A stretch of DNA of 64,000 nucleotides from Chitinophagaceae bacterium IBVUCB2 (GTDB lineage Bacteria; Bacteroidota; Bacteroidia; Chitinophagales; Chitinophagaceae), in assembly GCA_002127295.1 (NCBI GenBank), contig NFUV01000002.1, positions 124,001 to 188,000 of the forward strand, written 5' to 3'. The translations under genes and the position numbers were made by a program. This document shows positions 240 through 14,519 of this stretch, in pieces; position 1 is the stretch's first letter; every line of letters begins with the position of its first letter. The notes beneath the pieces are model-generated. The model was not told where the DNA came from and made no database searches. It was given only the letters and a program-made list of their open reading frames with translations.

Positions 240-330
240 TTCTAAAAAATTAGGTGCTTTTTTTGTTTACAGCACAAAGATGTTTTGAATAATTGATTGG
301 GAAGGGTGGCGTATATGACATATTAACGGG

Positions 331-361
331 TTGATTGCGACAAAGAGGTTTCCTATATTTG
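331..361 (+). promoter_or_regulatory. Bacteroidota-type promoter of the GlxA-like regulator
   Basis: TTG at 331-333, a 20-base spacer, then TATATTTG at 354-361, matching the Bacteroidota sigma-ABfr -33/-7 pattern (TTG, TAnnTTTG). The -7 box ends only 4 bases before the ATG at 366, so the transcript would be leaderless or nearly so. The same 20-base spacing recurs at two other genes in the window (atpD and the GbsR-type regulator), which supports the call. Confidence 0.5.
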
Positions 362-365
362 TTTT

Positions 366-1349
366 ATGAAAAAAGTATCTATACTGGTTCCTGAATCATC
401 AGTAATGCAAGCCATTGCTGATCCTCAGTATCTTTTTAGTGCAGTCAATAAATTTTTGTTGTCTGCCGGTAAGCCGCCATTGTTTGAAGTGGAACTTGTT
501 GGAGCAAAGAAAGAAGTACATATAAACAATGGCTCGTACTCAGTACATCCTGACAAGCAATTAAAAGAAGTAAAGGAAACAGACCTGATTATTATCCCTG
601 CTTTGTTGGGAGATATGCCGGCGGCAATAGAAAAGAACAAAGCATTGGTACCGTGGATTCAGGACAAATATTATAATGGGGCAGAAGTGGCATCTCTTTG
701 TGTAGGGGCATTTTTATTAGCATCAACAGGATTGCTGAACGGGAAAAAATGTTCGACACATTGGGGCTTTCAAAACGAATTCAGGGAAATGTTTCCAGAA
801 GTGGAAGTGGTAGAAGGCAGCATAGTAACTGAAGAAAAAAGAATTTATTCCAGCGGGGGTGCCAACTCTTACTGGAATTTACTTTTGCACCTGGTAGAAA
901 AATATACCAACCGCCAAACGGCTATTCTTGCCTCTAAGTATTTTGCAATTGATATTGACCGTAACAGCCAGGCTGCTTTTGCCATGTTTAAAGGGCAGAA
1001 AGATCACACGGATAAGGAGATAAAAAAAGCACAGGACTATATTGAAAAAAATATTCATGAAAAAATTACGATCGATGAACTGGCAGGCCATGCGGCCATC
1101 AGTCGCAGAACATTTGAACGACGGTTCAGGTTAGCTACCAATAACTCCGTACTGGAATATGTTCAGCGGATAAAAATAGAAGCGGCTAAACGACAGTTTG
1201 AAAACAGCCGGAAGAATATTAATGAAGTGATGTATGATGTGGGCTACACCGATACCAAAGCTTTTCGGGACCTGTTTAAAAAAATAACCGGGCTTACACC
1301 TATAGAATATAGAAATAAGTATAATAAGCAGGCTGTGGCCGTAATCTAG
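366..1349 (+). CDS. GlxA family transcriptional regulator (DJ-1/PfpI domain + AraC HTH)
   Basis: 327 residues. Residues 1-190 are a DJ-1/PfpI (class I amidotransferase-like) domain with the nucleophile-elbow sequence SLCVGAF (Cys112). Residues about 220-322 are an AraC/XylS double helix-turn-helix (KITIDELAGHAAISRRTFER, then a second helix ending in GLTPIEYRNKY). This is the GlxA/FtrA architecture: a cytosolic DNA-binding regulator whose N-terminal domain probably senses a small molecule. Its target is unknown; the divergent DinB-like gene is the obvious candidate. The gene ends 88 bases before the outermost attC-like site and converges with the cassette array. Confidence 0.88.
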   Translation: MKKVSILVPESSVMQAIADPQYLFSAVNKFLLSAGKPPLFEVELVGAKKEVHINNGSYSVHPDKQLKEVKETDLIIIPALLGDMPAAIEKNKALVPWIQDKYYNGAEVASLCVGAFLLASTGLLNGKKCSTHWGFQNEFREMFPEVEVVEGSIVTEEKRIYSSGGANSYWNLLLHLVEKYTNRQTAILASKYFAIDIDRNSQAAFAMFKGQKDHTDKEIKKAQDYIEKNIHEKITIDELAGHAAISRRTFERRFRLATNNSVLEYVQRIKIEAAKRQFENSRKNINEVMYDVGYTDTKAFRDLFKKITGLTPIEYRNKYNKQAVAVI

Positions 1350-1359
1350 TAACTGTTAC

Positions 1360-1397
1360 ATGCCGAAGGAGGCCGTCTTCTTATGGCCGAAGGAGGA
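1360..1397. repeat. Two short direct repeats at the outer edge of the cassette array
   Basis: TGCCGAAGGAGG at 1361-1372 and TGGCCGAAGGAGG at 1384-1396, just after the stop of the GlxA-like gene and before the last attC-like core at 1437. They look like two ribosome-binding-like GGAGG motifs, but no convincing gene follows. Function unknown; they may be a remnant of an earlier cassette junction. Confidence 0.4.
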
Positions 1398-1436
1398 TGT
1401 AAGCCACAAAATGTGGGAAGGATGTATTATTGAGAT

Positions 1437-1633
1437 TGTCAACGGCCAGGTATTGCTGCAGGCGGGATATTTTATAACGTCCAGCCCCGAACAAAAGCTG
1501 ATTGAAAATATTTTGTTGAAGTTAAAAATTAAAGTCAAATTACTAATGTCCAGCCCGGACTAGAGTACAGCGCTGCAAACTGCTGAAGATTCAATGTCCA
1601 GCCCCGCTTGCCAGCAATACCCATGTTGTAGGC
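1437..1633 (-). repeat. attC-like recombination site 4 (end of cassette 4)
   Basis: On the minus strand the site starts with R''-like GCCTACAAC (1633-1625), then an inner arm with GGTATTGCTGGCAAGCGGG. About 150 bases later comes the matching arm CCCGCCTGCAGCAATACC, and it ends at R'-like GTTGACA (1443-1437). The inner stem is about 17 bp with one or two mismatches. The middle carries three copies of a GTCCAGCCC motif (plus strand, about 1480, 1549 and 1594). The R'' half (GCCTAC) is complementary to the GTAGGC at the other end of cassette 4. This is the last site seen; no further cassette follows before the GlxA-like gene. Confidence 0.72.
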
Positions 1634-1640
1634 ATGTGCT

Positions 1641-2330
1641 TCACTTCAGCCGTCTAAGCAAACGTTTTCTATACCCGTTGCTTACACCTTGCTTACGCCA
1701 TGAAACAATGACGGCATCGTAATTGTTTCTTTTTTGCTTTTCTTCGCTTGTTAAAATGATAAGATTATTTACAACATCTTTTCCGCCCCAATTTTTGAAG
1801 TATTGCTGTTTGTCAATGAAAGAACCACTCAAAACAAAAGCAATTTTTTTTCCTTGAAAGTCAAAATCTTTACGTTGCTTCAACAATTCAGCGTTGAAAT
1901 ATTCTGCTTCATTATTGGTCAAAACAGGATTGATTGCTTTTCCTATGTTACCGGAAAAGGTAGTGTCAAACAAATATTTCAGTTTACTAAGGTCAGCGTT
2001 ATTGTTTGCAAGAGCATTTCTGCGACACCAAGTTGTTTGCTTGTTGTGTGAATAAACAAGATAGGTTTTCCCAACTTCAAACACCATCCCGCAGTCCGGG
2101 CCGCCAAAACCTGTTTTAATAGTTAAATTGGCGTCGCTGTCACCTTTGAACGTTTTTGAGACTTTGAACAAGTAGTACGCTTTGTCCGCTGCGGTTTTCT
2201 TGAGAACAGTTCCTACAAAGATTTGGTCTGCTTGAACAATTTCTTCGGAGAATGTCAGAGAGTTACACCTGCAAGCATAAGAAGTGACTGTTAATGTTAT
2301 CGCTAAAAGTATGAGGAGTGTTTGTTTCAT
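1641..2330 (-). CDS. Cassette 4: secreted TIMP/NTR-like domain protein
   Basis: 229 residues with an N-terminal signal peptide (MKQTLLILLAITLTVTSYA) and a mature end starting CRC. A Cys-X-Cys right after the signal peptide, followed by a stretch like ADQIFVGTVLK and further cysteines (GGPDCGM, TTWCRRN), is what tissue-inhibitor-of-metalloproteinase/netrin-like (NTR) domains show. The fold call covers about residues 20-110. The C-terminal 110 residues, ending in a basic tail (RKRLLRRLK), I do not recognise. It would be exported, possibly to the periplasm. The ATG is 6 bases from the cassette's 5' core and the stop 7 bases before its 3' core, so it fills cassette 4 apart from the attC. NTR fold: moderate confidence. 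Confidence 0.72.
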   Translation of the reverse strand: MKQTLLILLAITLTVTSYACRCNSLTFSEEIVQADQIFVGTVLKKTAADKAYYLFKVSKTFKGDSDANLTIKTGFGGPDCGMVFEVGKTYLVYSHNKQTTWCRRNALANNNADLSKLKYLFDTTFSGNIGKAINPVLTNNEAEYFNAELLKQRKDFDFQGKKIAFVLSGSFIDKQQYFKNWGGKDVVNNLIILTSEEKQKRNNYDAVIVSWRKQGVSNGYRKRLLRRLK

Positions 2331-2336
2331 AGCATT

Positions 2337-2530
2337 GCCTACGTTAGGGCTTGGCGTTGTGGCGATATTCCGTGTTACGTCAGCCCGGATATGTTGCTGA
2401 TCAAAGATATGAAGATGAAAATATATTCTAAAGCTGGGATTTATTCGTCAGTTGGATATGTCGCTGAGTAATGTTATATCGATCAGGATATATTCGTAAA
2501 GCCGCCATAACGCCAAACCCCATGTTGGGC
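2337..2530 (-). repeat. attC-like recombination site 3 (end of cassette 3)
   Basis: Minus strand: R'' GCCCAAC (2530-2524), inner arm GGGGTTTGGCGTTATGGCG, about 125 bases of lower-symmetry sequence, inner arm CGCCACAACGCCAAGCCC, a TAAC spacer and R' core CGTAGGC (2343-2337), one T short of the GTTRRRY consensus. The inner arms pair over 16 of 18 positions. It is about 90 percent alike by eye to attC1 although the neighbouring genes are unrelated, as expected of sites within one integron. Confidence 0.8.
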
Positions 2531-2549
2531 GTTCGTGTTTTTATATTTG

Positions 2550-2996
2550 CTAATTTCTGACATCTTTCTGCTTGTAGTGCTGTGTCAGGCGAGCAACGAG
2601 TATTTCAAGTTCGATTGTCTTGTCAACAGAACTGTTCCTTTCAAAGTCGAACATTTGGAGCAACGCAGTAAGAGCTTCCATTTCCCAGGCATCTTTTTCA
2701 GGATTAAGGTTTTTCAAATAGCCTTCTAAATTGTCAAAGTTTAGGTTCCCTTTGATTTTCGAGTGCAATTCGAGGATAAGTTCTTTTGGTTCTCGTAAAT
2801 TGGAAGTCGGCCAGTCAGTCAATGCGCTCATTAAAAGATTGGCCGATGCCTTGAAGTTGCTATTTGTTAAATCATTCTCGATTGCATCAAATAACTCCTC
2901 ATGAGTTAGTAAATCATATTTGTCTATCGTCGACATTCTTAGTTCGCTAATGTTTTGGGCTATTTTAAAACCGTTATAGTCAGTTGTCAATAACAT
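2550..2996 (-). CDS. Cassette 3: acidic cytosolic protein of unknown function
   Basis: 148 residues from the ATG at 2996, which lies 3 bases after the cassette's 5' core GTTGGGC; a TTG inside that core (3005) is in the same frame and could give three extra residues. No signal peptide or membrane segment. The sequence is rich in Glu, Asp and Leu, with mostly helical character (for example HEELFDAIENDL and WEMEALTALLQMF). It has the look of small immunity- or colicin-D-like helical proteins, but I recognise no family. It fills cassette 3, with the stop 19 bases from the next site. Confidence 0.65.
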   Translation of the reverse strand: MLLTTDYNGFKIAQNISELRMSTIDKYDLLTHEELFDAIENDLTNSNFKASANLLMSALTDWPTSNLREPKELILELHSKIKGNLNFDNLEGYLKNLNPEKDAWEMEALTALLQMFDFERNSSVDKTIELEILVARLTQHYKQKDVRN

Positions 2997-2999
2997 GAC

Positions 3000-3198
3000 G
3001 CCCAACGGACAGGGCTTGCCGAAGTACGGGAATTAGTATTCCGTCAGCCCGGAACCGATGATGATTGAAAAACTGATGATGAAGATAACAACAAAAAGCT
3101 AAATAGATAATGTCAAGCTGGATATGAAGCACAATAGAATTACAAAAAGCCGAAGATAACTTCCGTCAGCCCGTATTTTGGCAAACCCCCTGTTGTAC
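3000..3198 (-). repeat. attC-like recombination site 2 (end of cassette 2)
   Basis: Minus strand: R'' GTACAAC (3198-3192), inner arm GGGGGTTTGCCAAAATACGGG with an adjoining GCTGACGGAAG, a long middle, inner arm ending CGTACTTCGGCAAGCCC, a TGTCC spacer and R' GTTGGGC (3006-3000). The middle differs from attC1 and attC3, but the inner arm keeps the GGGTTTG/CAAGCCC motif and the overall length (199 bases). CAGCCCG occurs twice, in inverted context with TTCCGT. R'' matches the GTTGTAC at the other end of cassette 2, 7.7 kb away. Confidence 0.78.
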
Positions 3199-3266
3199 GT
3201 TCGCCCTTCTTCTCGGTCTGCTACAATGTGGGTCTGTGTCCAACCGTAGAGTGTTGCCTGTGCGTT

Positions 3267-3345
3267 GGCACAAGGCAGGCTCTTTTGCAAGGTTGGCTTA
3301 TGTGTGTTGGCTTTGTGTGCCTTGCAAATGTGCCTGACTTGGTGC
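3267..3345. repeat. Hairpin element, left copy, at the 3' end of the restriction operon
   Basis: Outer arms GGCACAAGGCAGGC (3267-3280) and GCCTGACTTGGTGC (3332-3345) pair with a few mismatches. Inside are inner arms TTTGCAAGG (3284-3292) and CCTTGCAAA (3320-3328), with a GTTGGCTT and TTTGTGTG loop. The inner part is the same as in the copy at 10736-10801, but the outer arms differ in sequence while still pairing. The gap 3199-3370 between the operon stop and attC2 holds only this element. It could act as a transcription stop, an RNA structure or a small mobile element. Confidence 0.6.
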
Positions 3346-3370
3346 GTCGGCTAATTGTTGTTACTATATT

Positions 3371-5878
3371 CTACTTCAAATGTTTTATAAAGGGTTGAAA
3401 TGAGTTTTCAAACTTTGGAAGATAAAGGATAAAAAAGCTATTCATATTTTCCCAATCTGATTCATTGAATAAATTGACATCTTGCAATTCAAATTTTATC
3501 CTACTCATTTTGTTTTCTGGTAACTCTTCCCAAACCAAAGTACTGCCAAAAGTTTGTTCTATGGCATCCTTATTTTTAAGCAGTTTCTTGAAGTAAACTT
3601 TGTTTTTCTCTTTGCTTGAAGTAGATATTCCTAATTCAATTCTAATGTGAGACTTTGTAATAATTAAAGTATATGCTAACCCTCCAATGCCTGCACCAGT
3701 GCTTAACCAATGGTCTTTTGAAGGACTTACATTGGCAAACAGATTTGTATGATTTAAAAGTGGCAATAATTGTTGCCAATATTTTTTTCTAACACTAAAG
3801 CGATTGGGCTCTGATACGTTTTCTCCATTTGATGAGTATTTTATTAATAGTTCATCTTCCATTTCGAACAAGGAAAGCAATCTCTTTAAAATGGTAAATT
3901 TCGAATTACTGTCTATGTTTGATTCAATATACCAGCCATTAACAACTTCCTGTGCTGCTCTGAAGTCTGATGCGTTTCTTGTTATTTTGAAAACATCCTG
4001 ATTACTTAATAATAATTGAGAATTCTTTTCGTAAAGATTTCTAATCACATAGAAATACATTTGAGCAACCGTGTCTTCCTCAACTTTTGTATTTTCAAAA
4101 ATGAAGTATTCAAGCTTTTTATGTGTTGGGCTTTCAGCATCATAAATATTCTGTTCTTCCGATTCGTCACCTTCTGTAATTTCCACATCAGGAAACTCCC
4201 ATATTTTCAAGAAACGTTCATAAATAATATTCAGTCTTTCTTCATATTTTGATACATTCCAAGTGTCAATAGATTTCAAAAATGAATTTAACCACAATCT
4301 GCTGTATTGGTAGCCTTGCTCATTTCCGTCAACATTCATTTCTTTTTTTGCCAAAAATGATTTGTTGCCCAATGCTCCGTTATTGCCTGAAAGTGTGAGA
4401 TTACCAATGGTGTTTAAATATTTTTCTTTAAAAACAAAATACTCTTCTGGCGATAAATCTGTGTTCCAATTTTCATTCGGGTTTCGTGGGAAAATATGTT
4501 CTATGGTAATTTGCTCGTTATTGGTATTCACATATTCCCTGTTGTTGTAATTTTCCAACATTTCAAACAGATAATTTCTGTTTTTCGGTTGTGTGTTATA
4601 CAAATCTTTATCCTTCAAAGCAGTTTTTAAATCTTCATTGCTTGGAAATTTCGCACTGCCCTTCTTTTTAAGTAAAGCTTTTGCAATAGAATCATAATAT
4701 TCTTCTGTATCAACTTCTGAATAAAGTGTCATAAATATCTTATTCAAAGAACTGGTTGGCAAGCCTACTATAAAACGTCTCCAGGCATAGCTTTGAATCA
4801 GTTTTAAAACTTTAATTAATTCATCTTTTGTAAGCAAACCGTTTTCAGTGTCTTCAAAAACTTGCAACAAAAAAGGATAAGTAACATTAATTTCTAAACG
4901 ATTAATGTATTCCAATTCTTTTTTGATGTCCGCATCTGTGACTGTTGAAGGATTAACAAACTTTTTATAATGAATAGATAAAGACTTTATGTTTTCCAGT
5001 TCTTGTTGATAGGCTTCATCCTTTTTGTTAGCGTAAAGACTTTTAAACTCTGCGTAAACTTTGTTTTTATTGGGTATTTTTTTGTTGCGAAGTGTCAGGT
5101 AATCTCTTATGTAATCCGATACCAAAGAGCTTTGCTTCACTAAATCTTTTGCATTTTCTTCAATGGGATTCCAGATGGTTTCAAATATTCTGTTTTGGTC
5201 TTTTGGTGGCAAGTCCATCAAAATAAAATTCCGTATCAAATCAGATTGCGATAAATCTAAACCTGTTGAATTTAAACTTTCGAAAATGCGTTGTGGGTCG
5301 TCTTTATCTCTTTCAAGTGAAATTTCTACAAAAATCAAACGATTCAAGCCTCTTAAAATCAATTCAAAATTGTCTTCATTGATGATGTTTCTAAAGTAGT
5401 TGTAGTTTTCTGTAACATTCGAAAATGCATTCGTTTCATTATCGGTGCCAAGCATAATGGCTTTAAAAGCTAATGAATTGGTATCGGTTTGTTTTAGCTT
5501 TAATTTGCTTGATTCGTTCTTAACATACTGATTGGTTAAAAACATATTGTAAAGACGTTCTGCATCCTGTGTGTTGCCGTTTTCTTTGGCAAAGCGATAA
5601 AGAGCCACATATAAAATATTGATAGTTGTTAAACGCTGCTGACCATCTATGATTACCAATTCTTTTACTTCGCTGGTGCTGTAAGTGCCTTCGTGAACAA
5701 ACACAATGCTACCAATAAAATGGGTTCCTCTATCTTCTGTTTCTACCGAAATAATATCATAGAGCAGTTCTTTACATTCGGTATTTGTCCAATCATAATT
5801 GCGTTGGTAAACAGGTATTACAAACTGCACATTGGGTGCTTGTAAAAAGTTATTTATCTGTAATTCGTTTGCTTTCAT
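3371..5878 (-). CDS. GmrSD-like DUF262/DUF1524 (HNH) protein with DUF4268-like C-terminus
   Basis: 835 residues, last gene of the restriction operon in cassette 2. Residues 1-230 form the DUF262 (GmrS-like) ParB/Srx-type domain: IPVYQRNYDW at 21-30, HFIGSIV, then IDGQQRLTT with DGQQR at 78-82, the motif linked to nucleotide hydrolysis. Residues about 440-560 are a DUF1524 (GmrD-like) HNH nuclease, with IEHIFPR (His461) and GNLTL near 492. Residues about 695-835 resemble DUF4268, a domain found at the end of restriction-associated proteins. In the GmrSD family such proteins cut modified phage DNA. Start ATG at 5878, 3 bases after the helicase stop, so translation is probably coupled. Whether it is part of the restriction complex or an independent type IV nuclease is inference. 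Confidence 0.85.
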   Translation of the reverse strand: MKANELQINNFLQAPNVQFVIPVYQRNYDWTNTECKELLYDIISVETEDRGTHFIGSIVFVHEGTYSTSEVKELVIIDGQQRLTTINILYVALYRFAKENGNTQDAERLYNMFLTNQYVKNESSKLKLKQTDTNSLAFKAIMLGTDNETNAFSNVTENYNYFRNIINEDNFELILRGLNRLIFVEISLERDKDDPQRIFESLNSTGLDLSQSDLIRNFILMDLPPKDQNRIFETIWNPIEENAKDLVKQSSLVSDYIRDYLTLRNKKIPNKNKVYAEFKSLYANKKDEAYQQELENIKSLSIHYKKFVNPSTVTDADIKKELEYINRLEINVTYPFLLQVFEDTENGLLTKDELIKVLKLIQSYAWRRFIVGLPTSSLNKIFMTLYSEVDTEEYYDSIAKALLKKKGSAKFPSNEDLKTALKDKDLYNTQPKNRNYLFEMLENYNNREYVNTNNEQITIEHIFPRNPNENWNTDLSPEEYFVFKEKYLNTIGNLTLSGNNGALGNKSFLAKKEMNVDGNEQGYQYSRLWLNSFLKSIDTWNVSKYEERLNIIYERFLKIWEFPDVEITEGDESEEQNIYDAESPTHKKLEYFIFENTKVEEDTVAQMYFYVIRNLYEKNSQLLLSNQDVFKITRNASDFRAAQEVVNGWYIESNIDSNSKFTILKRLLSLFEMEDELLIKYSSNGENVSEPNRFSVRKKYWQQLLPLLNHTNLFANVSPSKDHWLSTGAGIGGLAYTLIITKSHIRIELGISTSSKEKNKVYFKKLLKNKDAIEQTFGSTLVWEELPENKMSRIKFELQDVNLFNESDWENMNSFFILYLPKFENSFQPFIKHLK

Positions 5879-5881
5879 ATT

Positions 5882-8389
5882 TTAATCTTCATTTACAAAA
5901 CTTTCCTGATAATCCTTTGCACTCAATACTGTGTCGTAAAGCCCTATATCCTCATCTTTATGTTTACTGACACCAATGTATTGTAAACTGGCATCTTCAT
6001 AGCGTTTGAATTTGTAAACAGCATCATTCATTAATGCAGAATTGAAAACGCCAAGACTTACTAATAATTCAAAATCCTTAACTGTTAAACCTGTAACCTT
6101 TTTGAAAAGTCCGGGTTCTAATTTTGTTATTACGTCCTTCAAACTTCTTTCTCTATAGTCGGTCAGGTACATGAATACGGGAATACGAGTAGCGAACTTG
6201 ATAAGCTTTTCCTGAATTTGTTTTCGTTTGCTTTGGTATTCTTTCTCAGCATCAGATAACTCTTTCTTTTTCTTGTCCGATAACTCCTTGTCATTAGCTT
6301 CCTTCTTTGCTTTCTTTACGGCTTCTGATTTGTTGATAATGGTTTCAATGTCTTGATTCAAATTTCTGAAACCTTCAATGTTCATTAGAGCCTTCATGGC
6401 TTCTTCGTTTGCCATCAAACGGGCAAGTGTGTTATTGTCCACATTTACAAGTAATGCACTTTCCCAACGTCTTGCTAAAAGTGTTGCAGTAGTACCACTC
6501 ATTGCCATGTCTAAAATACCTGCGGCATCAACTTGCTTCATTGTACTTCCGTCATAAGCCAATACAGGCAAAAAGTTTATAAACTCTGCGACTTTTGCTT
6601 CTGGATTTGTTTCATTAACATTCAACCGACAACTGTAATCAGCTATTTGTCGCAATGCTCTGTCTGGGGCAAAATCAAAAACGTAACATTCTTCTTTTAG
6701 TATTTCTTCTTTGTTTGGTGATTTGCTATCTGGGTTTTTTATTACCCAAGGTGTTTGCACACGGAAAGCTGCTTGAAAGTAAGTTTCAGGACTGGAAGAA
6801 TTTCGCAACATAAAAATTCCTGTCCACGGTTTTATAGAAATTCCTGTTGTTAATTTTCCGCATGAAAGTGTGATTGTTTTTGATTCCAGTGGATTATCGG
6901 TCATGGCATCTAATACTGGCGGCATAGCTTCTACACCAATTCCTGCCTGAATTCCTGCTGCTACAACAATTGTATAGTCGTGATAGAATTTGTTTTGTCG
7001 TTGCTTTATTATGTTTGCCATTGCATGGCATGATGCTACAGTTGGCAAAAACCAAAACGTATGATTCAAAACTTTGAGTAATGGTGCATGAGAAAATGGT
7101 AAAGGTGGTTTCTTTGCACCCATCTTTAAATTGTCAACCGTAGTTTCTCTGAAATCACCACGAATTAGGTCAAGCCATTTTTGTACTTCGTCTTCATATT
7201 TGAATCGGGCATTTCGTCCTTCACCTTCTGCAGTAAAGAAAATATTCAAATCAAATCCGTCAAACTCACCTTGCATAGCTATTTGCCTTATGGTGTCAGG
7301 TAGTTGATAAGTAAGCATAACCATTCGTGGTAATGCAGCATAAGGATTGTTTGTGGCTTTCCAGTTTTCTTTTGCTTTTTGCTCGTCTGAATATGTCCAG
7401 TTGAAAATTTGTTCTTCAATAAATTCGCCAGATGCTATGGCTCTAAAAGGTGTGCCGGATAAATATAAATAATGATTGGTAGTAATTGGCATTGTTTCTT
7501 CATCAAAATATTCAATGCCTTCACCTTCGCCAAATTCTAACTCTTTTTTGCCTTCTGCTTCAAACAATTCTTTCGCATTTTCACGCCATGCACCATAATG
7601 ATATTCGTCAAATATTACGCAATCCCAATTGGTAGCATGTACCCATTCATTTTTGGTTTTAATACCTCCGGTACTTGTATTCTTTCCCAAATAATCCTGA
7701 AAAGAACCAAAACACACAATAGGTTTTTTAGGGTCGGCATCTTCAAACTTCAATCCGTTTCTTGCAATAAATTGCCATCCTTTAAAATCAACATGGGTTT
7801 TTAAATCTTCATCCCATGCACTTTGAACAGCAGGCTTAAAAGTCAGAATCAGAATTTTTTTCCAGCCCAATTTCTTTGCCAATTGATAACTGGCAAAGGT
7901 TTTTCCGAAACGCATTTTTGCATTCCATAGAAAGTGAGGCGTTTGTTTTGGATTTTCTTTTTTATAGCTTTTGAAATATTGGATGCTTTTATTAACAGCT
8001 TCTTCCTGCTCTGGTCGCATGATGAAATTTAGCACCCGATTTTCTTCGGTTTGTTCACCTGTTTTTATTTGATGAATGGCTCTACGCAAATCATTTAAGT
8101 TGCATTTATACCATTCGCCACTTGCATTAACTACTTTCCATTCTCTTAAAAGCCGATGCACATCATGGTCGGTAAACGAACTGCCATCTTTCTTCATAGC
8201 CGATTCTTCAAACATAATTTTATGTTCAATCTTGGCTGTTCCCAGTTGTTCTTTAATACGAGTTTTTGCATCTCGGTCGGTAAAACCAATTTTGAGCAAA
8301 CCTTTATGCGTTGCCACACCAACCAACTCATAAGCGTAGATAGTCGGATTAGTTAGTGGTCGTGGCGGAAAGAATTTCATTTTACTCAT
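5882..8389 (-). CDS. GIY-YIG nuclease fused to SF2 DEAD-like helicase (restriction subunit)
   Basis: About 835 residues. An N-terminal GIY-YIG-type nuclease fold covers residues about 15-100 (YAYELVG, then KIGFTDRDAKTRIKEQL). A superfamily 2 helicase/translocase core follows: motif I AKMRFGKT (GKT near 164), motif II DEYH near 263, motif III LSGTPFR near 313, motif VI-like QAAFRVQ. The C-terminus has a charged coiled-coil-like stretch (EAVKKAKKEANDKELSDKK). This is the likely DNA-translocating and cleaving subunit. ATG 8389 overlaps the methyltransferase stop as ATGAGTAA; an ATG two codons upstream (8395) is also possible. Both point to translational coupling. The helicase core assignment is secure; the GIY-YIG call rests on the spacing of the two motifs. 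Confidence 0.85.
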   Translation of the reverse strand: MSKMKFFPPRPLTNPTIYAYELVGVATHKGLLKIGFTDRDAKTRIKEQLGTAKIEHKIMFEESAMKKDGSSFTDHDVHRLLREWKVVNASGEWYKCNLNDLRRAIHQIKTGEQTEENRVLNFIMRPEQEEAVNKSIQYFKSYKKENPKQTPHFLWNAKMRFGKTFASYQLAKKLGWKKILILTFKPAVQSAWDEDLKTHVDFKGWQFIARNGLKFEDADPKKPIVCFGSFQDYLGKNTSTGGIKTKNEWVHATNWDCVIFDEYHYGAWRENAKELFEAEGKKELEFGEGEGIEYFDEETMPITTNHYLYLSGTPFRAIASGEFIEEQIFNWTYSDEQKAKENWKATNNPYAALPRMVMLTYQLPDTIRQIAMQGEFDGFDLNIFFTAEGEGRNARFKYEDEVQKWLDLIRGDFRETTVDNLKMGAKKPPLPFSHAPLLKVLNHTFWFLPTVASCHAMANIIKQRQNKFYHDYTIVVAAGIQAGIGVEAMPPVLDAMTDNPLESKTITLSCGKLTTGISIKPWTGIFMLRNSSSPETYFQAAFRVQTPWVIKNPDSKSPNKEEILKEECYVFDFAPDRALRQIADYSCRLNVNETNPEAKVAEFINFLPVLAYDGSTMKQVDAAGILDMAMSGTTATLLARRWESALLVNVDNNTLARLMANEEAMKALMNIEGFRNLNQDIETIINKSEAVKKAKKEANDKELSDKKKKELSDAEKEYQSKRKQIQEKLIKFATRIPVFMYLTDYRERSLKDVITKLEPGLFKKVTGLTVKDFELLVSLGVFNSALMNDAVYKFKRYEDASLQYIGVSKHKDEDIGLYDTVLSAKDYQESFVNED

Positions 8390-9917
8390 CGGCATCAGTA
8401 TTTGCAGTTTCGCCTACCGCTTTTATTTTTGAATCAATGAATTTCCATTCTTCTTTAGTGATGCCCCATCTTTTGCATAATAGCTCATCTGTATAAACTC
8501 CTTCATATTTCCCCAAGTCAGGAACAAATTGAAAATTTCCTCTGGTTACATCTTGTGAAACGACAGTTTGCAGCAAAAGAAATCTGAAAGTCTTTGTAAA
8601 TAAAAATGACTTAAATGATATTACTTCTTTTTGCGTCTTTGCTGCGAATGCTACAATCCAAGATTCAGTGCAGGCTTCCCCGGGTTTGGCAATTCTTGTA
8701 TTACCATCATAATAAAATCCAACAGGTTTGGAGAAGTCTGTTTGACCTGCAATTGGTGCTCTCGGTATGAGAAGTTTATATTTATCAAGCAAATTATAGC
8801 TGTCTGATAATTCCTCTTTCTTTATATAAAGTAATCCTTGTCTTTGAGTGAAATAACAAGGAATTCCAGATTTAGATGGAGTATGATGACCTCTTACTCC
8901 AAATGGTTTTGAAGGCGAAACTACTTCACTCAGATTTTTACCGCCATTTTCTTTTTTTGCTAAAACCTTTCTAATAATTGGAATTGCTTTGCTATGGCGA
9001 ATGAAAATTGGAAATTCATTTAGTGTTCTTTCGGATTTTTCTTGATTTCCATTTATAAAATTAGTTACCTCACAAAGTCCGGGATTATCTCTGTCCCACA
9101 AAAAGTAACAAATACCTCCTGCAACATCTACACCGGGAAACACTTCATTGGAATTTTCAAAATCAACAAGCCTTCTAATTCTTTTGTCGTTCAGCATGTC
9201 AGAACGAAAATCATCCAAACCTTTACCTCCAGCAAACCAACGAGCAGGAACAATCATAGTCAAGTATCTTGGATTTAATTTTTTGGCTTGTTCTATGAAT
9301 TTGTGATAAATAGGACTTGCACTTCTGCCATGCCCTGCATCACTCAATTGATATGGCGGATTTCCAACGATTACATCAAATTTCATATTGAATATTTTTT
9401 CCGGTTTGTCCGTGTGAATAAAATTGTATGCGTAAGTTTCCAAAGCATCTTCACGGTCATACACTTCCTGGCTTGCTCCGCAATAGGTACATTTTGCATC
9501 GCTAAAAGTATGTTTCAGTTTTTTGTAATGAATATTGCTTTGCTCATTTTCAAATGCGTCCACAACAGAATACTTGCCATTGGCTGTTTTGCTGCAATAC
9601 ACACTTCTTTTGCTAAGCAGAGAAGTGAGTTCAGTTATGGCTATCCCAAAAATTTGCTTTGTAAATATGTGGTTGATTCTATTTTGCTTATCTGGTATTT
9701 GTGTTTCAAGTCCTTTGTCTAACCGTTTTGCAATTTCCCTTAAAAACACACCGCTTTTTGAAACAGGGTCTAAAAAAGTAGCGTTTGGGTTTCGCCAAAT
9801 ACTTGCCGGTAGCAAGTCTAAAATGTCATTGGCTAATCCCGGTGGTGTAAACACTTCATCATTACTCAAATTAGCAAGGCAGGAAAGTACATCAGGATTA
9901 TAATTTGTTTGTATCAT
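8382..9917 (-). CDS. Eco57I-like N6-adenine DNA methyltransferase
   Basis: 511 residues. It has the two hallmarks of an amino-group DNA methyltransferase: motif I FLDPVSKSGVF (residues 48-58, a variant of FxDPxxGSG) and motif IV VGNPPYQ (NPPY 186-189), with a target-recognition-type C-terminal half. A possible metal-binding set, Cys108 and CTYCG (Cys143, Cys146), sits in the insert before NPPY. In Eco57I-type and type I/III-like systems this protein methylates adenine in the host's own sites. The start ATG 9917 is one base after the stop of the upstream subunit. Not a frameshifted half of that gene: each has its own motif I. Confidence 0.88.
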   Translation of the reverse strand: MIQTNYNPDVLSCLANLSNDEVFTPPGLANDILDLLPASIWRNPNATFLDPVSKSGVFLREIAKRLDKGLETQIPDKQNRINHIFTKQIFGIAITELTSLLSKRSVYCSKTANGKYSVVDAFENEQSNIHYKKLKHTFSDAKCTYCGASQEVYDREDALETYAYNFIHTDKPEKIFNMKFDVIVGNPPYQLSDAGHGRSASPIYHKFIEQAKKLNPRYLTMIVPARWFAGGKGLDDFRSDMLNDKRIRRLVDFENSNEVFPGVDVAGGICYFLWDRDNPGLCEVTNFINGNQEKSERTLNEFPIFIRHSKAIPIIRKVLAKKENGGKNLSEVVSPSKPFGVRGHHTPSKSGIPCYFTQRQGLLYIKKEELSDSYNLLDKYKLLIPRAPIAGQTDFSKPVGFYYDGNTRIAKPGEACTESWIVAFAAKTQKEVISFKSFLFTKTFRFLLLQTVVSQDVTRGNFQFVPDLGKYEGVYTDELLCKRWGITKEEWKFIDSKIKAVGETANTDADE

Positions 9918-9918
9918 C

Positions 9919-10557
9919 TTAGCCGAGCTTTAAGAAATGAATTAGTGGAAAATCTTTTACTGGTTCATCAATTGCCGCTGCGTTTCCTTCGTCATTAAAC
10001 ATGGAGAATTGATGGGTTTGTTCTACCAAAAATTTAAAAACATAATCTCTTCTTTTTAGCATGTTCTCATTTATCATACTCCATTCAGAAAAAACGATTG
10101 GTTTTTTTGTAACAGGATTGGTAAAGTCTAAAGCATCACCCCACAAAATATTTCTCTTTAAAATAAATTTTATGCTTTTTAATAATTCTATTTTGGCATT
10201 AATGCCAAAACTGTCAACATAAATTTTGGAAAATATTGCAAATAATCTTTCCTGACATTCCAAAGTATTATCTTCTAAAATATCCACACCATAAATGCTT
10301 GAAATTGCGATTAAAGAATTTCGCTCCCATTCAAGTTGACTTGAACGGTATCTATTTTCAACTACTGATAATTTTCTTTTCAATACTTCCGCTAAAAAGT
10401 TGCCATTGCCGCAGGCAGGTTCCAGAAAACGAGAATCAATACGTTCAGTCTCTTGCTTAACCAAATCAAGCATTGCGTTTACTTCTCTCTCACTTGTAAA
10501 CACTTCTCCGTGGTCTGTTACCCGTTTTTTTGTTTTTACTTGTTTGGTATCATTCAT
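9919..10557 (-). CDS. Small methyltransferase-like restriction-modification subunit lacking NPPY
   Basis: 212 residues from ATG 10557; a TTG seven codons upstream is possible. First gene of the operon. It has HGEVFTS, then motif I FLEPACGNGNFL (residues 44-55), YGVDILEDN and ILWGDALDF, all typical of the SAM-binding half of N6-adenine methyltransferases. Where NPPY should follow it has FTNPVTKKPIVFSEW, without the catalytic motif, and the protein stops soon after. It is therefore probably a non-catalytic or partner subunit of the 511-residue methyltransferase. Whether it is a relic or a working specificity/regulatory subunit cannot be told from sequence. Confidence 0.8.
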   Translation of the reverse strand: MNDTKQVKTKKRVTDHGEVFTSEREVNAMLDLVKQETERIDSRFLEPACGNGNFLAEVLKRKLSVVENRYRSSQLEWERNSLIAISSIYGVDILEDNTLECQERLFAIFSKIYVDSFGINAKIELLKSIKFILKRNILWGDALDFTNPVTKKPIVFSEWSMINENMLKRRDYVFKFLVEQTHQFSMFNDEGNAAAIDEPVKDFPLIHFLKLG

Positions 10558-10735
10558 ATCACTAAATACTGTGTCCAATTATGAGTTTTATTGCTAAGTT
10601 AAGTCTAAAGAACTAAAATGCTTTGGTCAGTTGGGTGGTGGGTGGGCTTTGGTGCTCAGTAAAGTTATATTGCTGATGTGTCGAACAAATGTTGATAGAA
10701 ATTCGTCCGCCGGGGTGGGTGGGCTGTGCGTTGGC

Positions 10736-10801
10736 ATTTTTAGCTCTTTGCAAGGTTGGCTTTGTGTCGGGGTTTTGTGTGCCTTGCAATGTGCTAAAAA
10801 T
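10736..10801. repeat. Hairpin element, right copy, upstream of the restriction operon
   Basis: Perfect outer arms ATTTTTAGC (10736-10744) and GCTAAAAAT (10793-10801) enclose inner arms TTTGCAAGG (10747-10755) and CCTTGCAA (10782-10789), with GTTGGCTTTGTG and TTTTGTGTG between. The preceding CTGTGCGTTGGCA is also shared with the left copy at 3267-3345. The 10558-10864 gap holds this element and probably the operon promoter, but no gene I can support; it is G/T-rich on the plus strand. Confidence 0.6.
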
Positions 10802-10864
10802 AGCGTGGGGTCGGGTGGCGAAGTCTTGGTACATGAATTTGAGTAGGATGCTGTTTAGGGTGAC

Positions 10865-11059
10865 GTACAACGTCCGGGCTTGGCGATGTGGCGATATTCC
10901 GTGTTACGTAAGCCGGGACTGGTGCTGATCAAAGATATGAAGATGAGAATATATTCTTAAGCTGGGCTTTATTCGTAAAGTTGGATATGCAGCTGAGTAG
11001 CGTTATATCGATCAGGATATGTTCGTAAAGCCGCCATGACGCCAAACCCCTTGTTGGGC
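10865..11059 (-). repeat. attC-like recombination site 1 (end of cassette 1)
   Basis: Minus strand: R'' GCCCAAC (11059-11053), inner arm GGGGTTTGGCGTCATGGCGG, a middle nearly identical to attC3 (shared ATCCTGATCGATATAAC and TTCATATCTTTGATCAGCA), inner arm CGCCACATCGCCAAGCCC, a GGAC spacer and R' GTTGTAC (10871-10865). The inner arms pair over about 14 of 18 positions. R'' and R' of this site do not match each other (GTTGGGC against GTTGTAC), but each matches the far end of its own cassette. Confidence 0.82.
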
Positions 11060-11070
11060 GAAGTGCAATT

Positions 11071-11574
11071 TTACATTAGTTTCCTCTTGTTTAAATCGGC
11101 AGTCTTAATAATGAGGGTACAAACTCTCATAAATTCTGTAAGATTTCTTTTTTTTGTCGCATAGTCAGGTGACCAAACAGAATAGTATAACAAATTTTCT
11201 GCTATGCCGAATCCAATTGTGCATGTGTATCCGTCAAAACCATCAACCTTAGATTTTTCAATATCATTCTGCGATATTTTTTGAACTAGATTCGCAATTT
11301 GTGAGAAACGAGATATTTCCATTGAATAGCTTGTGTCCATCGCTGTATGGTTCCATTCCTTTGAATTATCCATGGGTTTGGAAATTACACGAATTGAAGC
11401 TGTGTCTCCCCTCTTAGTCATTTCAATAGTTACAATATGGTCTGGAATTCTTAATGACTGTATTAGTTCAAATTTGATCCTTTCAATATTCGTTTGTGCA
11501 ATGACCTCAAGTGGTGACATCCACCATAAAATGATAAAAAGAGAAGAAAAATAGTATTTAGAGACTATACTCAT
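11071..11574 (-). CDS. Cassette 1: secreted protein of unknown function
   Basis: 167 residues with a clear signal peptide (hydrophobic FSSLFIILWWMSPLEVIA, cleavage before QTN). The mature part is soluble, with two cysteines (YTCTIGFG and FMRVCTLII) that could pair. No family recognised. It is the first cassette after the attI-like site, the position that in known integrons is inserted last and expressed best. ATG lies 21 bases from the 5' core and the stop 11 bases from the 3' core. Confidence 0.72.
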   Translation of the reverse strand: MSIVSKYYFSSLFIILWWMSPLEVIAQTNIERIKFELIQSLRIPDHIVTIEMTKRGDTASIRVISKPMDNSKEWNHTAMDTSYSMEISRFSQIANLVQKISQNDIEKSKVDGFDGYTCTIGFGIAENLLYYSVWSPDYATKKRNLTEFMRVCTLIIKTADLNKRKLM

Positions 11575-11595
11575 TTAAGTAATGTTCTGCATTTC

Positions 11596-11703
11596 GCCCA
11601 ACAAGTAAATTTATGTTATAAGACGTACTCATCCAAGAAAAATAAGCATTGAAAATCAATACTTTGATGTTATATATTTTGTATTGTCGTTAGGACAATC
11701 CAC
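11596..11703 (-). other. attI-like insertion site between recombinase and first cassette
   Basis: A single core GTTGGGC (minus strand, 11602-11596) is followed directly by cassette 1. No second arm of the 195-base repeat is present: the 100 bases back to the recombinase stop share nothing with attC1 or attC3, which is how an attI differs from an attC. The core and the next bases (CGAAATGCA) match the far end of cassette 1 (CGAAGTGCA), so this junction was probably made by inserting that cassette. Its place after the 3' end of the recombinase gene, not before the 5' end, is the inverse of class 1 integrons. Confidence 0.65.
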
Positions 11704-12921
11704 CTACCAGTCTATTGATTGCTTTTTCCACAAATCATCAAACGGACTTACAATATTTACTAATTGCTTTTTACTTACATGTAAATATCTTTCTGTTGTT
11801 TTAATATCAAAATGGCCTAGTAAGTCTTTTATATATTTAATATCTGTTCCTTTTTCCAGTAAGTGTGTGGCAAAACTATGTCGCAGGCTATGTACACCTA
11901 CTTCCTTTCTAATTCCTGCTTTTTGCTTAGCTGTTGTAAATATTTGCTGTACTGTGCGAATTGGATAGGCCGTATGAGTTTGTTCAGATTCAAATAAATA
12001 TTCTAAAGGCCTTGGGGTACAGGTTTTAATGTAGCTACGCAAAATATCCAAAACAATGGGGCTTAATCCTACATAACGATCTTTTTTACCTTTAGACTGG
12101 CTTACAAATATTTGCATCCGGCTGCTGTCTATATCAGCAACTTTTAGTTTTACAATTTCACTCACTCTTAAACCAGCACTATATGCTGTAAATAGTATTG
12201 CTTTATGTTTCTTATTAGTTAATGCATTAAATAGCCGTGTTAATTCATCTTCGCTTAATAGCTTAGGTAACAGTTGAGGTTTCTTTGGCCTGGGAATAGT
12301 CCAAAAAAATTTTTCTCTTCCCAATACCTGCTCATAATAAAACTTCATTGCATTAATACGGCTATGCAATGTGTTTTCCTTCAGTTGCAATTTTTCATAG
12401 CAAAAAACAAGGTATCTTTTTAAATGCTCAGGAGTTAACTGGTCAGCAGGTATGTCTTTTAATAAATGAAGTAGTTGAGACATTTCATTTAAATAGGTTT
12501 TGATGGTGGATTGGCTGTAAGCTTTTAATTTAAGGTGCTGGTGCATGGCTGGAATTACATGTGCATTTGCACTACCCATATTCTTTTTCTTGTATACAAT
12601 TTCCCGGCTATTCACCCATGCTGGCTTTGCCTCGCTGCTAATAGCTGGAATAATTTTGCCGGCATTTGTTTTTTTAGTTTTCTTTTCTGCCAGGTATTGA
12701 TGCAGCGCCGACTGTTCAATTACAGCCAACCCTTTTAATGCAGCAAAGATTTTATTATAGTTCTCTTTACTTAGTGCAGCATACCAACATTTATGCGTAC
12801 CACTAAATTTTACAATACCGGTTTTTTGTAATGCTCCTTGAATTCTCGGGTGTATAGGAAAATAAATTCCGATAGACTCCTGCCCACGATGTTGCAGTGG
12901 CTTTAGTATTACATCTATCAT
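11704..12921 (-). CDS. Tyrosine recombinase of the integron-like element
   Basis: 405 residues from ATG 12921; a TTG five codons upstream is also in frame. Residues 15-70 are an arm-like N-terminal domain (KFSGTHKCWYAAL), 115-200 a SAM-like core-binding domain, and 215-390 the catalytic domain. Catalytic residues visible: Arg252 in AGLRVSE, Lys near 276 in SKGKKD, His344-x-x-Arg347 in HSLRHSF, His370 in LGHFD and the nucleophile Tyr379 in TERYLHV. The 60 or so residues between the Lys region and HxxR hold no extra segment like the one that marks IntI and lets it bind folded attC. It reads toward the cassettes and is followed by the attI-like core. It is Xer/phage-integrase-like by sequence; its role in cassette exchange is inferred from position. 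Confidence 0.9.
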   Translation of the reverse strand: MIDVILKPLQHRGQESIGIYFPIHPRIQGALQKTGIVKFSGTHKCWYAALSKENYNKIFAALKGLAVIEQSALHQYLAEKKTKKTNAGKIIPAISSEAKPAWVNSREIVYKKKNMGSANAHVIPAMHQHLKLKAYSQSTIKTYLNEMSQLLHLLKDIPADQLTPEHLKRYLVFCYEKLQLKENTLHSRINAMKFYYEQVLGREKFFWTIPRPKKPQLLPKLLSEDELTRLFNALTNKKHKAILFTAYSAGLRVSEIVKLKVADIDSSRMQIFVSQSKGKKDRYVGLSPIVLDILRSYIKTCTPRPLEYLFESEQTHTAYPIRTVQQIFTTAKQKAGIRKEVGVHSLRHSFATHLLEKGTDIKYIKDLLGHFDIKTTERYLHVSKKQLVNIVSPFDDLWKKQSIDW

Positions 12922-12939
12922 TTGATAAATTGTCAAATG
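12919..12939. promoter_or_regulatory. Palindrome over the recombinase start codon
   Basis: CATTTGA, 7 bases, TCAAATG: perfect 7-bp arms at 12919-12925 and 12933-12939. The ATG of the recombinase lies in the outermost bases of one arm. Only 43 bases separate this ATG from the stop of porT, so control sequences must lie here or within porT. A repressor site or a start-occluding RNA hairpin are both possible. Confidence 0.4.
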
Positions 12940-12964
12940 AATTTACAACATCTAAAGAGAAAAA

Positions 12965-13714
12965 CTATCCTTCCAAATGAATCGAAAACACAATCATCCT
13001 TGATTGTATCTTATCAAATACATTGGAAAATTTCAGGTTCTCATCCCGGCCATGAATATTACGCAGGCCATTGCTGATCTTTATTTCTGGAGAAAATATA
13101 AAACTGGGGAAGAAAAAATTAAAACCTATTCCAAACTCAGGACCAAAATCATACTTGCCGATCTTTACCAGATCATCACCTCTTTTTGACCGGGCATTAC
13201 TCGCCATATCAATATCGGCTTTAAAACCAGCCAGTGTGTACACTCTAAAATTTCCAATCCTATCACTCTGAAATTTTAACTGTATCGGGAATGACATGAT
13301 AACCGATTCTACTTTTTTGGTAGCTTCTGTGGCACCATCCAGGTCGGGGTATTTTAATTTGTAATAAATACTGCGTTCAATAAACATTAACTGTGGATTG
13401 AAGCGAAGTGCAAAACGATTGGATAAACGAGCCGTTGCATGCAGGCCCAATGTAAGTCCACCGGAGTTTACCGGTTCTGCTACCATCACACTATCATATT
13501 GTAAAAAGCGGGGATGTAATTCGGTTTGAAAACGAGCCAGGTTTACACCGATGGTAATGCCAAAATAATAGGGCTTTACATCATGGTCGGTTTTATTTAA
13601 CTCAATACCTTCAAACTGTGCCTGCACTAATGATGAAAGCAACAATGCACCTGCTACTAATAAAGAGGTTGTCCTGTTCTTTATATAGGCTTTCTTCCGG
13701 AGTAAATGCAACAT
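12965..13714 (-). CDS. porT: PorT-like outer-membrane beta-barrel protein
   Basis: 249 residues: signal peptide (SLLVAGALLLSSLVQAQ), then an eight-strand-type barrel of the porin-family/PorT kind (YYFGITIGVNLARF near the start, LALRFNPQLMF-like strands, DFGPEFGIGFNFFFPSF later). PorT is an outer-membrane component of the type IX secretion system. In Bacteroidota it commonly follows the menaquinone methyltransferase gene, as here. It overlaps the end of ubiE by 34 bases on the same strand, so the two are co-transcribed. A T9SS substrate is encoded at 16441-18045. The porT name rests on family likeness plus this neighbour. Confidence 0.8.
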   Translation of the reverse strand: MLHLLRKKAYIKNRTTSLLVAGALLLSSLVQAQFEGIELNKTDHDVKPYYFGITIGVNLARFQTELHPRFLQYDSVMVAEPVNSGGLTLGLHATARLSNRFALRFNPQLMFIERSIYYKLKYPDLDGATEATKKVESVIMSFPIQLKFQSDRIGNFRVYTLAGFKADIDMASNARSKRGDDLVKIGKYDFGPEFGIGFNFFFPSFIFSPEIKISNGLRNIHGRDENLKFSNVFDKIQSRMIVFSIHLEG

Positions 13715-14433
13715 ATTCCTAAGCTTAATGAACTGTACTCAGCTTGAGTATAGCCCACTTTTTTTAAAATGTCAGTAAATAATTGGCGATCCGGAAACGC
13801 ATTAGCCGACTCATTCAAATATTGGTATGCTTCTTTATTTTGCCTGAATAGCCGGGCCACCTGCGGTGCCACTATTCCCATATACAAATTGTACAAACCC
13901 TTTATTGCTTTACGTCGTGGTTTTGAAAATTCAAGTATCACTACCTGGCCACCGGGTTTTAATACCCTTTTCATCTCGGCCAGGCCATTTTCCAGGTTTT
14001 CAAAGTTCCGTACTCCAAATGCCACCATCACGGCATCAAACGTATTATCCGCAAAATTTATTGTTTCGGAATCTCCCAGCTGTAAGTGGATTTTATCCAC
14101 AAGTTGCTCTTTTTCAATCTTTTTTCTACCTAATTCCAGCATTCCTTCGGAAATATCAATACCGGTTATCCGCTCAGGATACAGCATTTTCCAGGCCAGC
14201 AAAGCCATATCAGCCGTGCCGGTTGCCACATCCAGTATATGTGCAGGCTTATCTTTTTTAAAGCGGCGAATGGCTTTTTTGCGCCATCCAATATCAGTTC
14301 CGGCGGAGAGGAACCGGTTTAGTTTATCATACTTTCCGGCAATTTTATCGAACATATCAGCTACCTGTTCCTTCTTCGTTTTCTGCGAATCTTTAAAGGG
14401 TATGATATGGTCATGTGGTAATATCTCAGACAT
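13681..14433 (-). CDS. ubiE: Demethylmenaquinone methyltransferase (UbiE/MenG)
   Basis: 250 residues from ATG 14433; an in-frame TTG three codons earlier is less likely. SAM-binding motif ILDVATGTADMAL, GIDISEGML, and the family signatures FDKIAGKYDKLNRFLS and VMVAFGVRNFENL, plus RVLKPGGQVVILEFS. It methylates demethylmenaquinone to menaquinone, the respiratory quinone of Bacteroidota. First gene of a two-gene unit with porT. Confidence 0.95.
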   Translation of the reverse strand: MSEILPHDHIIPFKDSQKTKKEQVADMFDKIAGKYDKLNRFLSAGTDIGWRKKAIRRFKKDKPAHILDVATGTADMALLAWKMLYPERITGIDISEGMLELGRKKIEKEQLVDKIHLQLGDSETINFADNTFDAVMVAFGVRNFENLENGLAEMKRVLKPGGQVVILEFSKPRRKAIKGLYNLYMGIVAPQVARLFRQNKEAYQYLNESANAFPDRQLFTDILKKVGYTQAEYSSLSLGICCIYSGRKPI

Positions 14434-14439
14434 GGGGTG

Positions 14440-14447
14440 CAAAGGTA
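14440..14447 (-). promoter_or_regulatory. Possible -7 box of ubiE-porT
   Basis: TACCTTTG on the minus strand, the same octamer as in the atpD promoter, ends 6 bases before the ATG at 14433. No good TTG is found 20 bases upstream, so this is a half-supported promoter. Confidence 0.3.
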
Positions 14448-14519
14448 AAGCAAGTTTATAGTTTTGAGTTTGCTGTTTATAGTTTTATAGCAAGTTGTTT
14501 ACTTTATCTTGCACACATC

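Follow-up and report, generated by a model that had tools for sequence, protein, structure and literature searches.

An integron cassette moves as a circle, in which the outer arm of its recombination site base-pairs with the core that leads the same cassette, and in an array this core is that of the preceding site. In the closest described systems, the chromosomal integrons built from IntI, attI, and attC, the integrase IntI is defined by an extra domain near patch III (PMC9668308, PMC9024848; these and the other papers given by PMC number are cited from the parts of their text that were available), and the bottom strand of the site is the substrate (PMC2727003). In an "integron-like" subgroup of simple tyrosine recombinases, the IntI insertion is incompletely conserved (Smyshlyaev 2021, PMC8138268). 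Bacteroidota, or the Bacteroidetes/Chlorobi group, have been named among the phyla with integrons or intI (PMC8618304, PMC9668308, PMC2426708), and for Bacteroidetes proper IntegronFinder 2.0 records a single complete integron, in Salinibacter, where earlier only In0 was recorded (PMC9024848). Here we describe a gene-cassette array in a 64,000-nucleotide (nt) stretch of contig NFUV01000002.1 from Chitinophagaceae bacterium IBVUCB2 (the window; coordinates below are positions in it). On the evidence of the DNA, we put at about 0.88 the probability that this array functions in the manner of an integron, as a gene-cassette platform in the chromosome whose integrase belongs to a lineage outside IntI. 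By the usual definition the platform is not an IntI integron.

A gene-cassette array next to porT

The array lies on the minus strand and runs from a tyrosine recombinase of 410 amino acids (aa) through a lone core to four cassettes, with seven open reading frames (ORFs); porT adjoins it. Its parts are as follows.

12965..13714, minus strand: porT/sprT (NCBIfam NF052311, above cut-off), a chromosomal flank common to relatives L036 and L037
11704..12936, minus strand: tyrosine recombinase, 410 aa from a TTG, with an N-terminal domain (residues ~1-92), a core-binding SAM-like domain, and a catalytic domain
11595..11614, minus strand: attI-like site, motif ATAAATTTACTT and then the lone core GTTGGGCG, with GTT at 11602-11600
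10871..11601, minus strand: cassette 1, from the TT of the attI core to the G of the S1 core
11574-11071, minus strand: cassette 1 ORF, 167 aa, no family match
10864..11062, minus strand: site S1, attC-like
3006..10870, minus strand: cassette 2, 7.9 kb, four genes
10578-9919, minus strand: cassette 2, methylase fragment (Pfam)
9917-8382, minus strand: cassette 2, Eco57I-type methylase (Pfam)
8395-5882, minus strand: cassette 2, ResIII/T5orf172 protein (Pfam)
5878-3371, minus strand: cassette 2, GmrSD and DUF4268 protein (Pfam)
2999..3200, minus strand: site S2, attC-like
2342..3005, minus strand: cassette 3
3005-2550, minus strand: cassette 3 ORF, 151 aa, no family match
2336..2532, minus strand: site S3, attC-like, 90% identical to S1, 3' core short by three bases
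1443..2341, minus strand: cassette 4
2330-1641, minus strand: cassette 4 ORF, 229 aa, no family match
1437..1634, minus strand: site S4, attC-like, closing the array

Each cassette is terminated by a hairpin site of ~197 nt. The conserved inner arms proposed in the first-pass annotation pair in every one of the four sites (GGGTTTGGCG/CGCCAAGCCC in S1 and S3, GGGTTTGCC/GGCAAGCCC in S2, and GGTATTGCTG/CAGCAATACC in S4). The recombinase, lone core, four cassettes, and seven same-strand ORFs all lie at the positions claimed there, and the integron architecture, the orientation, the attI-like core, and the placement of sites at gene boundaries hold in the window and recur in relatives. The description of the outer cores as RYYYAAC/GTTRRRY-type is right as to type, but S1 (GTTGTAC) and S4 (GTTGACA) depart from strict GTTRRRY, and S3 is damaged. 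The sites had no match to Rfam in window positions 1-14,500, where one weak, unrelated match was found. For the recombinase, an ATG at 12921 agrees better with the starts of homologues than the TTG does, and because the listed TTG start of the cassette 3 ORF lies inside the recombination core, the true start of that gene is probably later.

Successive sites carry the signature of circular cassettes

In the window, the first three sites each have an outer arm complementary, in one unbroken run, to the core before it (S1 to the attI core, 10 bases; S2 to the S1 core, 9; S3 to the S2 core, 9), whereas matches to nonpreceding cores reach 8 bases at most. The attI-like core thus complements the S1 outer arm over 10 nt, and a similar motif and core occur in relatives.

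Relatives of the recombinase show the same relationship. Statistics were gathered with a strict scan for arms of the form AACA...CGTT over recombinase loci, leaving out 29 short or redundant loci; the strict form was used because relaxing the cores in a general arm scan yielded noise, and it detects just one of the four window sites, the other three being described by hand. Across 101 consecutive pairs, the outer arm of one site matched the core of the site before it at a mean of 6.23 of 7 positions, and 86 pairs matched at 6 or 7. Shuffled controls had a mean of 3.29, the top mean among 10,000 shuffles being 3.76. Nonadjacent pairs within the same locus had a mean of 3.30, with 6 or 7 matches in 43/800, and the two ends of a single site a mean of 3.45, with 6 or 7 matches in 5/139. 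Downstream of the recombinase, 143 sites (141 different) lay on its strand and none on the other strand, and base-shuffled downstream DNA (one copy per locus, 472 kb in total) yielded no sites at the statistical threshold. At least one downstream site was present in 30 of the 38 loci having at least 3 kb there, and two or more in 25.

The median cassette is 884 nt long. In 90 of 94 cassettes the longest ORF is co-directional with the recombinase, and in 60 of those 90 it stops 8 to 30 nt before the site. The possibility, raised in the first-pass annotation, that the repeats bear no relation to gene boundaries does not agree with these relatives, in which sites are tied to gene ends. Core-to-core distances fall into classes of ~121, ~154, and ~186 nt, the site interior repeats with a 19/37-nt period, and the 3' spacer exceeds the 5' spacer in 138 of 141 sites. 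In a random sample of 20 of 55 cassette proteins, 5 had a Pfam match at E <= 0.001 (one of them below the family's own cut-off) and 15 were unmatched.

Outside the family, linked site pairs were found in 15 of 31 regions around relatives of the recombinase and in none after one shuffle of each, and many were of the same site type; absence of the IntI insertion was checked in 24 of these regions, the linked pair of L173 is too short for trust, and L175 was counted uninspected. On a Rufibacter tibetensis plasmid (L155), a lineage recombinase is followed by a row of small same-strand genes with ~60-nt hairpins judged by eye to be attC-like, among which the scan made no links. In Niastella caeni (L041), two equally similar recombinase stretches (661-1533 and 4267-5139) are each followed by a site with the same arm (2820 and 6426), which may represent a duplicated integrase-cassette unit or an assembly artefact. 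In seven further loci (L006, L007, L008, L013, L016, L025, and L029), the contig stops 56 to 922 nt past the recombinase, which is how assemblies broken by repetitive arrays would look; array sizes are therefore underestimated.

Cassette content changes at attI and a cassette is duplicated within an array

A core exactly fitting the arm of the first site lies between the recombinase and that site in 28 of 33 loci, and in 19 of those 28, as in the window, it is 48 to 324 nt past the recombinase stop (within 400 nt), mostly behind a motif like GTATATTTACGT. A conserved GTATATTTA motif before the attI core in L060, L074, and L084 resembles a Bacteroidetes -7 promoter box, and could serve as a cassette promoter as well as being part of attI.

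Two relatives of the window locus place the point of change beside this core. From porT through the recombinase to attI, L037 is 74% identical to the window in nt sequence; for L034 the shared stretch runs from recombinase to attI, at 71%. Both alignments stop at window position 11606. Before the core, L037 and the window agree in 94 of 111 columns, whereas over 110 nt past it they agree in 65, within the range of shuffled sequence (mean, 61; maximum, 71). The first-pass annotation proposed a search for differing content at the same porT-side locus; such a change is seen between the window and L037, relatives rather than strains of one species, which diverge right after the core.

Within the L070 array, one 471-nt cassette is present four times, with different neighbors each time and edges at G|TT; the flanks of the copies are 0.20 to 0.42 identical, save one left pair. 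These comparisons establish change of content at attI and cassette duplication within an array, while the architecture, the circle signature, and the position of the junction can be read directly from the DNA.

Cassette 2 is far bigger than the other three cassettes, and by Pfam and PADLOC its genes, the split methylase included, are a restriction or defence set. An inverted repeat of ~95 nt stands at both ends of its genes (window 10710-10801 and 3244-3341); it occurs at no other place in the bacterium's own genome, and a copy is found in L037 at 9416-9468, in the first stretch behind attI (87% over 55 nt). The proteins of cassettes 1, 3, and 4 had no family match in Pfam or NCBIfam. Elsewhere in the same genome, further whole or partial sites lie at C1:146-298, C1:135963-136149, C1:2052835-2052957, and C2:1300904-1300983; two of these are near contig ends, and C1:135963-136149 is a complete, lone site of the 186-nt class. 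In the rest of the window (14,500-64,000), a looser scan gave 1 + 1 hits.

The integrase lineage lacks the IntI insertion and lies outside the IntI clade

All curated models scored the window recombinase below their cut-offs (bits/cut-off: XerA_Arch, 206/220; TIGR02249 [IntI], 175.3/265; XerC, 170/335; XerD, 164/330), and the TIGR02249 match falls into two stretches, the best of which stops ahead of the insertion. The IntI-specific insertion (~40 aa) is absent from the lineage: the interval near patch III spans 28 to 33 aa in 100 of 100 lineage rows (a few of which are one gene fetched twice) versus 70 aa in 30 of 30 IntI rows, which were picked with TIGR02249 and contain the insertion by that selection. 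R257, K282, H349, R352, H375, and Y384, which we take to be the catalytic residues of a tyrosine recombinase, are invariant (15/15). The alignments establish both the absence of the insertion and the conservation of these residues.

In a careful tree of 61 rows (17 of 78 were dropped as long or near-duplicate, and the outgroup was two Xer proteins of the bacterium's own genome, both long-branched), IntI forms one clade with 100/100 support and the lineage falls outside it. A single clade for the lineage has a p value of 0.35 in the approximately unbiased test on this tree, and a quick tree placed IntI within the lineage with weak support. The lineage as the sister of IntI and the lineage as the stock from which IntI arose are both compatible with these trees. 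The suggestion in the first-pass annotation that this may be an undescribed lineage is borne out by the position of the integrase outside the IntI clade, by the missing insertion, and by the lack of a description in the literature searched. That search covered open-access literature, most subscription papers and preprints lying outside its scope, and in the text available it returned no description of insertless integrases with cassette arrays or of tet(X) as such a cassette.

Residues 1 to 92 form a separate domain in the predicted structure (predicted local distance difference test score, 87) and lie outside the stretch matched by the IntI model. Some relatives in other families or classes align from query residue 7 to 10, so the domain is present there too. 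Pfam gave no match to it, and its sequence matches in the PDB had E values of 0.59 or worse. HARP was our guess ahead of the fold search, in which SMARCAL1 HARP (4o66) held the first two places (probability, 0.87 and 0.85; E, 0.082), a match that is not significant.

Predicted strand preference of the folded sites

Predicted arm stability favors the bottom strand in 111 of 134 sites and the top strand in 20. On the coding strand, non-Watson-Crick positions are A.C more often than G.T (189 versus 69 in 131 sites), an excess that places G.T pairs on the bottom strand.

tet(X2) and tet(X3) as cassettes

A plasmid search with the recombinase found a truncated relative, TnpF, on pHH1107 and also on Acinetobacter plasmids (~50% identity over 58% of the query). 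On pHH1107, this truncated member of the window integrase lineage (TnpF/xerD) stands immediately ahead of tet(X3). The gene is followed by the beginning of a site of the 121-nt class that has been cut off; over 82 nt it is 81.7% identical to an array site. This partial site scores 68 bits, whereas none of 77 control stretches taken from that record exceeds 31, and in the Empedobacter record L210 the tet(X3) site is complete. Altogether, tet(X2) or tet(X3) cassettes with 121-class sites were seen in plasmid records L154 and L210 to L214.

Together with its site, tet(X2) makes up a 1,327-nt cassette in four plasmid contexts (Empedobacter, Riemerella, Sphingobacterium, and Bacteroides), with 97 to 99.8% identity inside and 12 to 50% (left) or 32 to 42% (right) in the flanks. 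At its junctions, variable bases bracket GTT on both sides, and its outer arm GGCACATAAC exactly complements the leading core in every record but that from Bacteroides, where the core has one change. The literature gives the context of tet(X3) as xerD-tet(X3)-res-ISCR2 (PMC7494873, PMC8635130); in the available text of these papers, integrons and cassettes are unmentioned in the former, and the latter uses these words in other senses only. On our comparison, tet(X2) and tet(X3) would have originated as cassettes.

A 2026 report describes the entry of aph(3')-IVb, with 27 nt of 5' and 140 nt of 3' sequence, into Riemerella without homology; the 140-nt 3' part folds like attC, and in the part of the report available the recombinase is unnamed and the mechanism is given as unknown (PMC13148043). 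The platform described here offers a possible mechanism for such homology-free spread of resistance genes reported in Bacteroidota.

Distribution

At E <= 1e-50, 70 of the 195 family genomes (47 of 101 genera) carry a relative of the recombinase; at a looser limit unfiltered for true IntI, 85 of 296 genomes of the phylum do. In a second family, searched with the pHH1107 relative, 84 of 118 genomes were positive by search match alone. True IntI, above the TIGR02249 cut-off, is carried by 84 of 296 Bacteroidota genomes, so the premise of the first-pass annotation that this phylum is not rich in integrons needs revision; the window lineage is a second, different population. In nine regions around true IntI genes from six other Bacteroidota genomes, the AACA...CGTT scan found no linked arrays. 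A large gene-capture system would then probably escape a tool that recognizes integrases through the IntI domain.

Proposed mechanism and alternative explanations

We propose that the recombinase, as the likely catalyst, would cut out and insert cassettes as circles. The long attC-like hairpin would close each cassette and, in the circle, its outer arm would pair with the cassette's own leading core; crossover would fall inside the GTT of the core, most simply as G^TT. The partner would be the attI-like core behind the recombinase gene or the site of another cassette, and new cassettes would probably enter beside the recombinase at attI, in its direction. A single strand of the site, the bottom one, may be the substrate, and the N-terminal domain may help to bind the folded site, replacing the IntI insertion. 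A more ambitious account, in which an insertless, Bacteroidota-wide lineage, sister or ancestral to IntI, recombines folded sites through a HARP-like domain and is the native home of tet(X) cassettes later found in Acinetobacter, is tentative, and we rate it at somewhat under an even chance.

Several observations weigh against an integron-like platform of this kind. Recombination by this protein is a prediction from sequence, and the IntI insertion has been called essential for integron function (PMC8138268). In the window, S3 is damaged and the S3-S4 link is broken: GTT is present in three of the four sites, the 3' core of S3 is CGTAGGCA where the outer arm of S4 predicts CGTTGTAGGCA (three bases missing), and S4 fails the preceding-core match because of this damage, S3 itself being probably inactive. 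Among the relatives, 15 of the 101 consecutive pairs match at no more than 5 positions, and 11 of those at fewer than 5 (for some of these, sites may have been missed or decayed); 8 of the 38 loci with enough DNA, L037 included, have no downstream site, although 4 of the 8 have an upstream site on the opposite strand; and 5 of 33 loci lack an exact core ahead of the first site. Whole-site folding prefers bottom over top in just 91 versus 42 cases, and T.G pairs near the end of the outer arm favor the top strand. As to mobility, none of 102 cassettes in the loci examined was common to another genome over 60% of its length, and one left-flank pair of the L070 copies is 0.63 alike, both flanks being site ends. 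L036 shares porT, recombinase, and attI with the window (its attI is ~480 nt farther from the recombinase) and is uninformative on turnover because its contig ends 12 nt past the aligned stretch. Finally, the tet(X3) outer arm GGCTACTAAC misfits the leading core in both pHH1107 and L210, so that this cassette looks recombinant or decayed.

Three other explanations were weighed. The system might be an ordinary IntI integron whose integrase has diverged somewhat, as would fit the 175-bit TIGR02249 match, the presence of IntI4 (2a3v) among the best structural relatives of the window recombinase, and the integron rules that the sites follow. We reject this identity, which we consider improbable, on the score far below the 265-bit cut-off, on an insertion found in 0 of 100 lineage rows against all 30 IntI rows (rows chosen by that same model), and on the fully supported IntI clade that excludes the lineage; the extra N-terminal domain also speaks against it. 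Nearly as improbable, though rated a shade higher, is that another recombinase, such as the cell's XerC/XerD, moves the cassettes and the neighboring one is a bystander. Lone sites elsewhere in the genome could be read in this way, as could the tet(X2) plasmid stretches, which list no recombinase gene in a gene table known to be incomplete, but a bystander would not be expected to have sites behind it, on one strand, in 30 of 38 loci, to be followed 48 to 324 nt past its stop by an attI-like core in the window and in 19 of 33 loci, or to have a truncated member of its lineage stand ahead of tet(X3) on pHH1107.

The third explanation takes the hairpins for terminators or for a dispersed repeat, like repetitive extragenic palindromic (REP) sequences or miniature inverted-repeat transposable elements (MITEs), in an order fixed by descent. 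Hairpins that trail gene ends and fold well, with copies outside the array in the same genome, speak for it; it leaves unexplained the core complementarity of successive sites, the change of content at attI, and the exact edges that cassettes keep in new contexts. We reject terminators, REP/MITE-like repeats, and fixed-order descent alike on the circle signature and the junctions, and give this explanation almost no weight. If the integron-like platform is real, integron-type recombination of folded cassette sites can do without the IntI insertion, and the purpose of that insertion and the origin of integrons become directly testable questions.

Comparison with known systems

XerA, XerC, and XerD are among the nearest curated models of the window recombinase; they differ in that all scores are below cut-off and in that a cassette array adjoins the window gene. 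From the insertless members of the "integron-like" subgroup the lineage differs in its cassette arrays, which are not linked to those members in the available text of that study (PMC8138268). The spread of aph(3')-IVb in Riemerella anatipestifer resembles the system in combining a gene with a 140-nt 3' attC-like hairpin and homology-free integration, a likeness of description rather than of site sequence, and differs in that no recombinase, attI, or array system is named in the accessible part of the report (PMC13148043).

The layout resembles that of integrons of the Treponema denticola type, in which the integrase is transcribed toward attI and the array (PMC3607928). The first-pass annotation drew this parallel, and it stands for the direction in which the integrase reads; it does not extend to L075, L076, L078, and L095, whose five upstream sites, on the opposite strand, give the classical divergent layout. 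The Treponema integrases are moreover treated as IntI (PMC3607928), whereas the window lineage is not IntI. With the chromosomal IntI/attI/attC integrons, the platform shares a tyrosine recombinase, an adjacent single-core attI, one-directional cassettes whose genes mostly lack a known family, RYYYAAC...GTTRRRY-type sites with an inner stem and a longer 3'-side spacer, crossover at the GTT core, and a predicted preference for the bottom strand. It differs in its integrase, which falls outside the IntI clade, lacks the insertion, carries an additional N-terminal domain, and usually reads toward the array. Its sites differ as well, having ~121-, ~154-, and ~186-nt classes, 19/37-nt internal periodicity, and conserved A.C mismatches in a ~20-bp stem.

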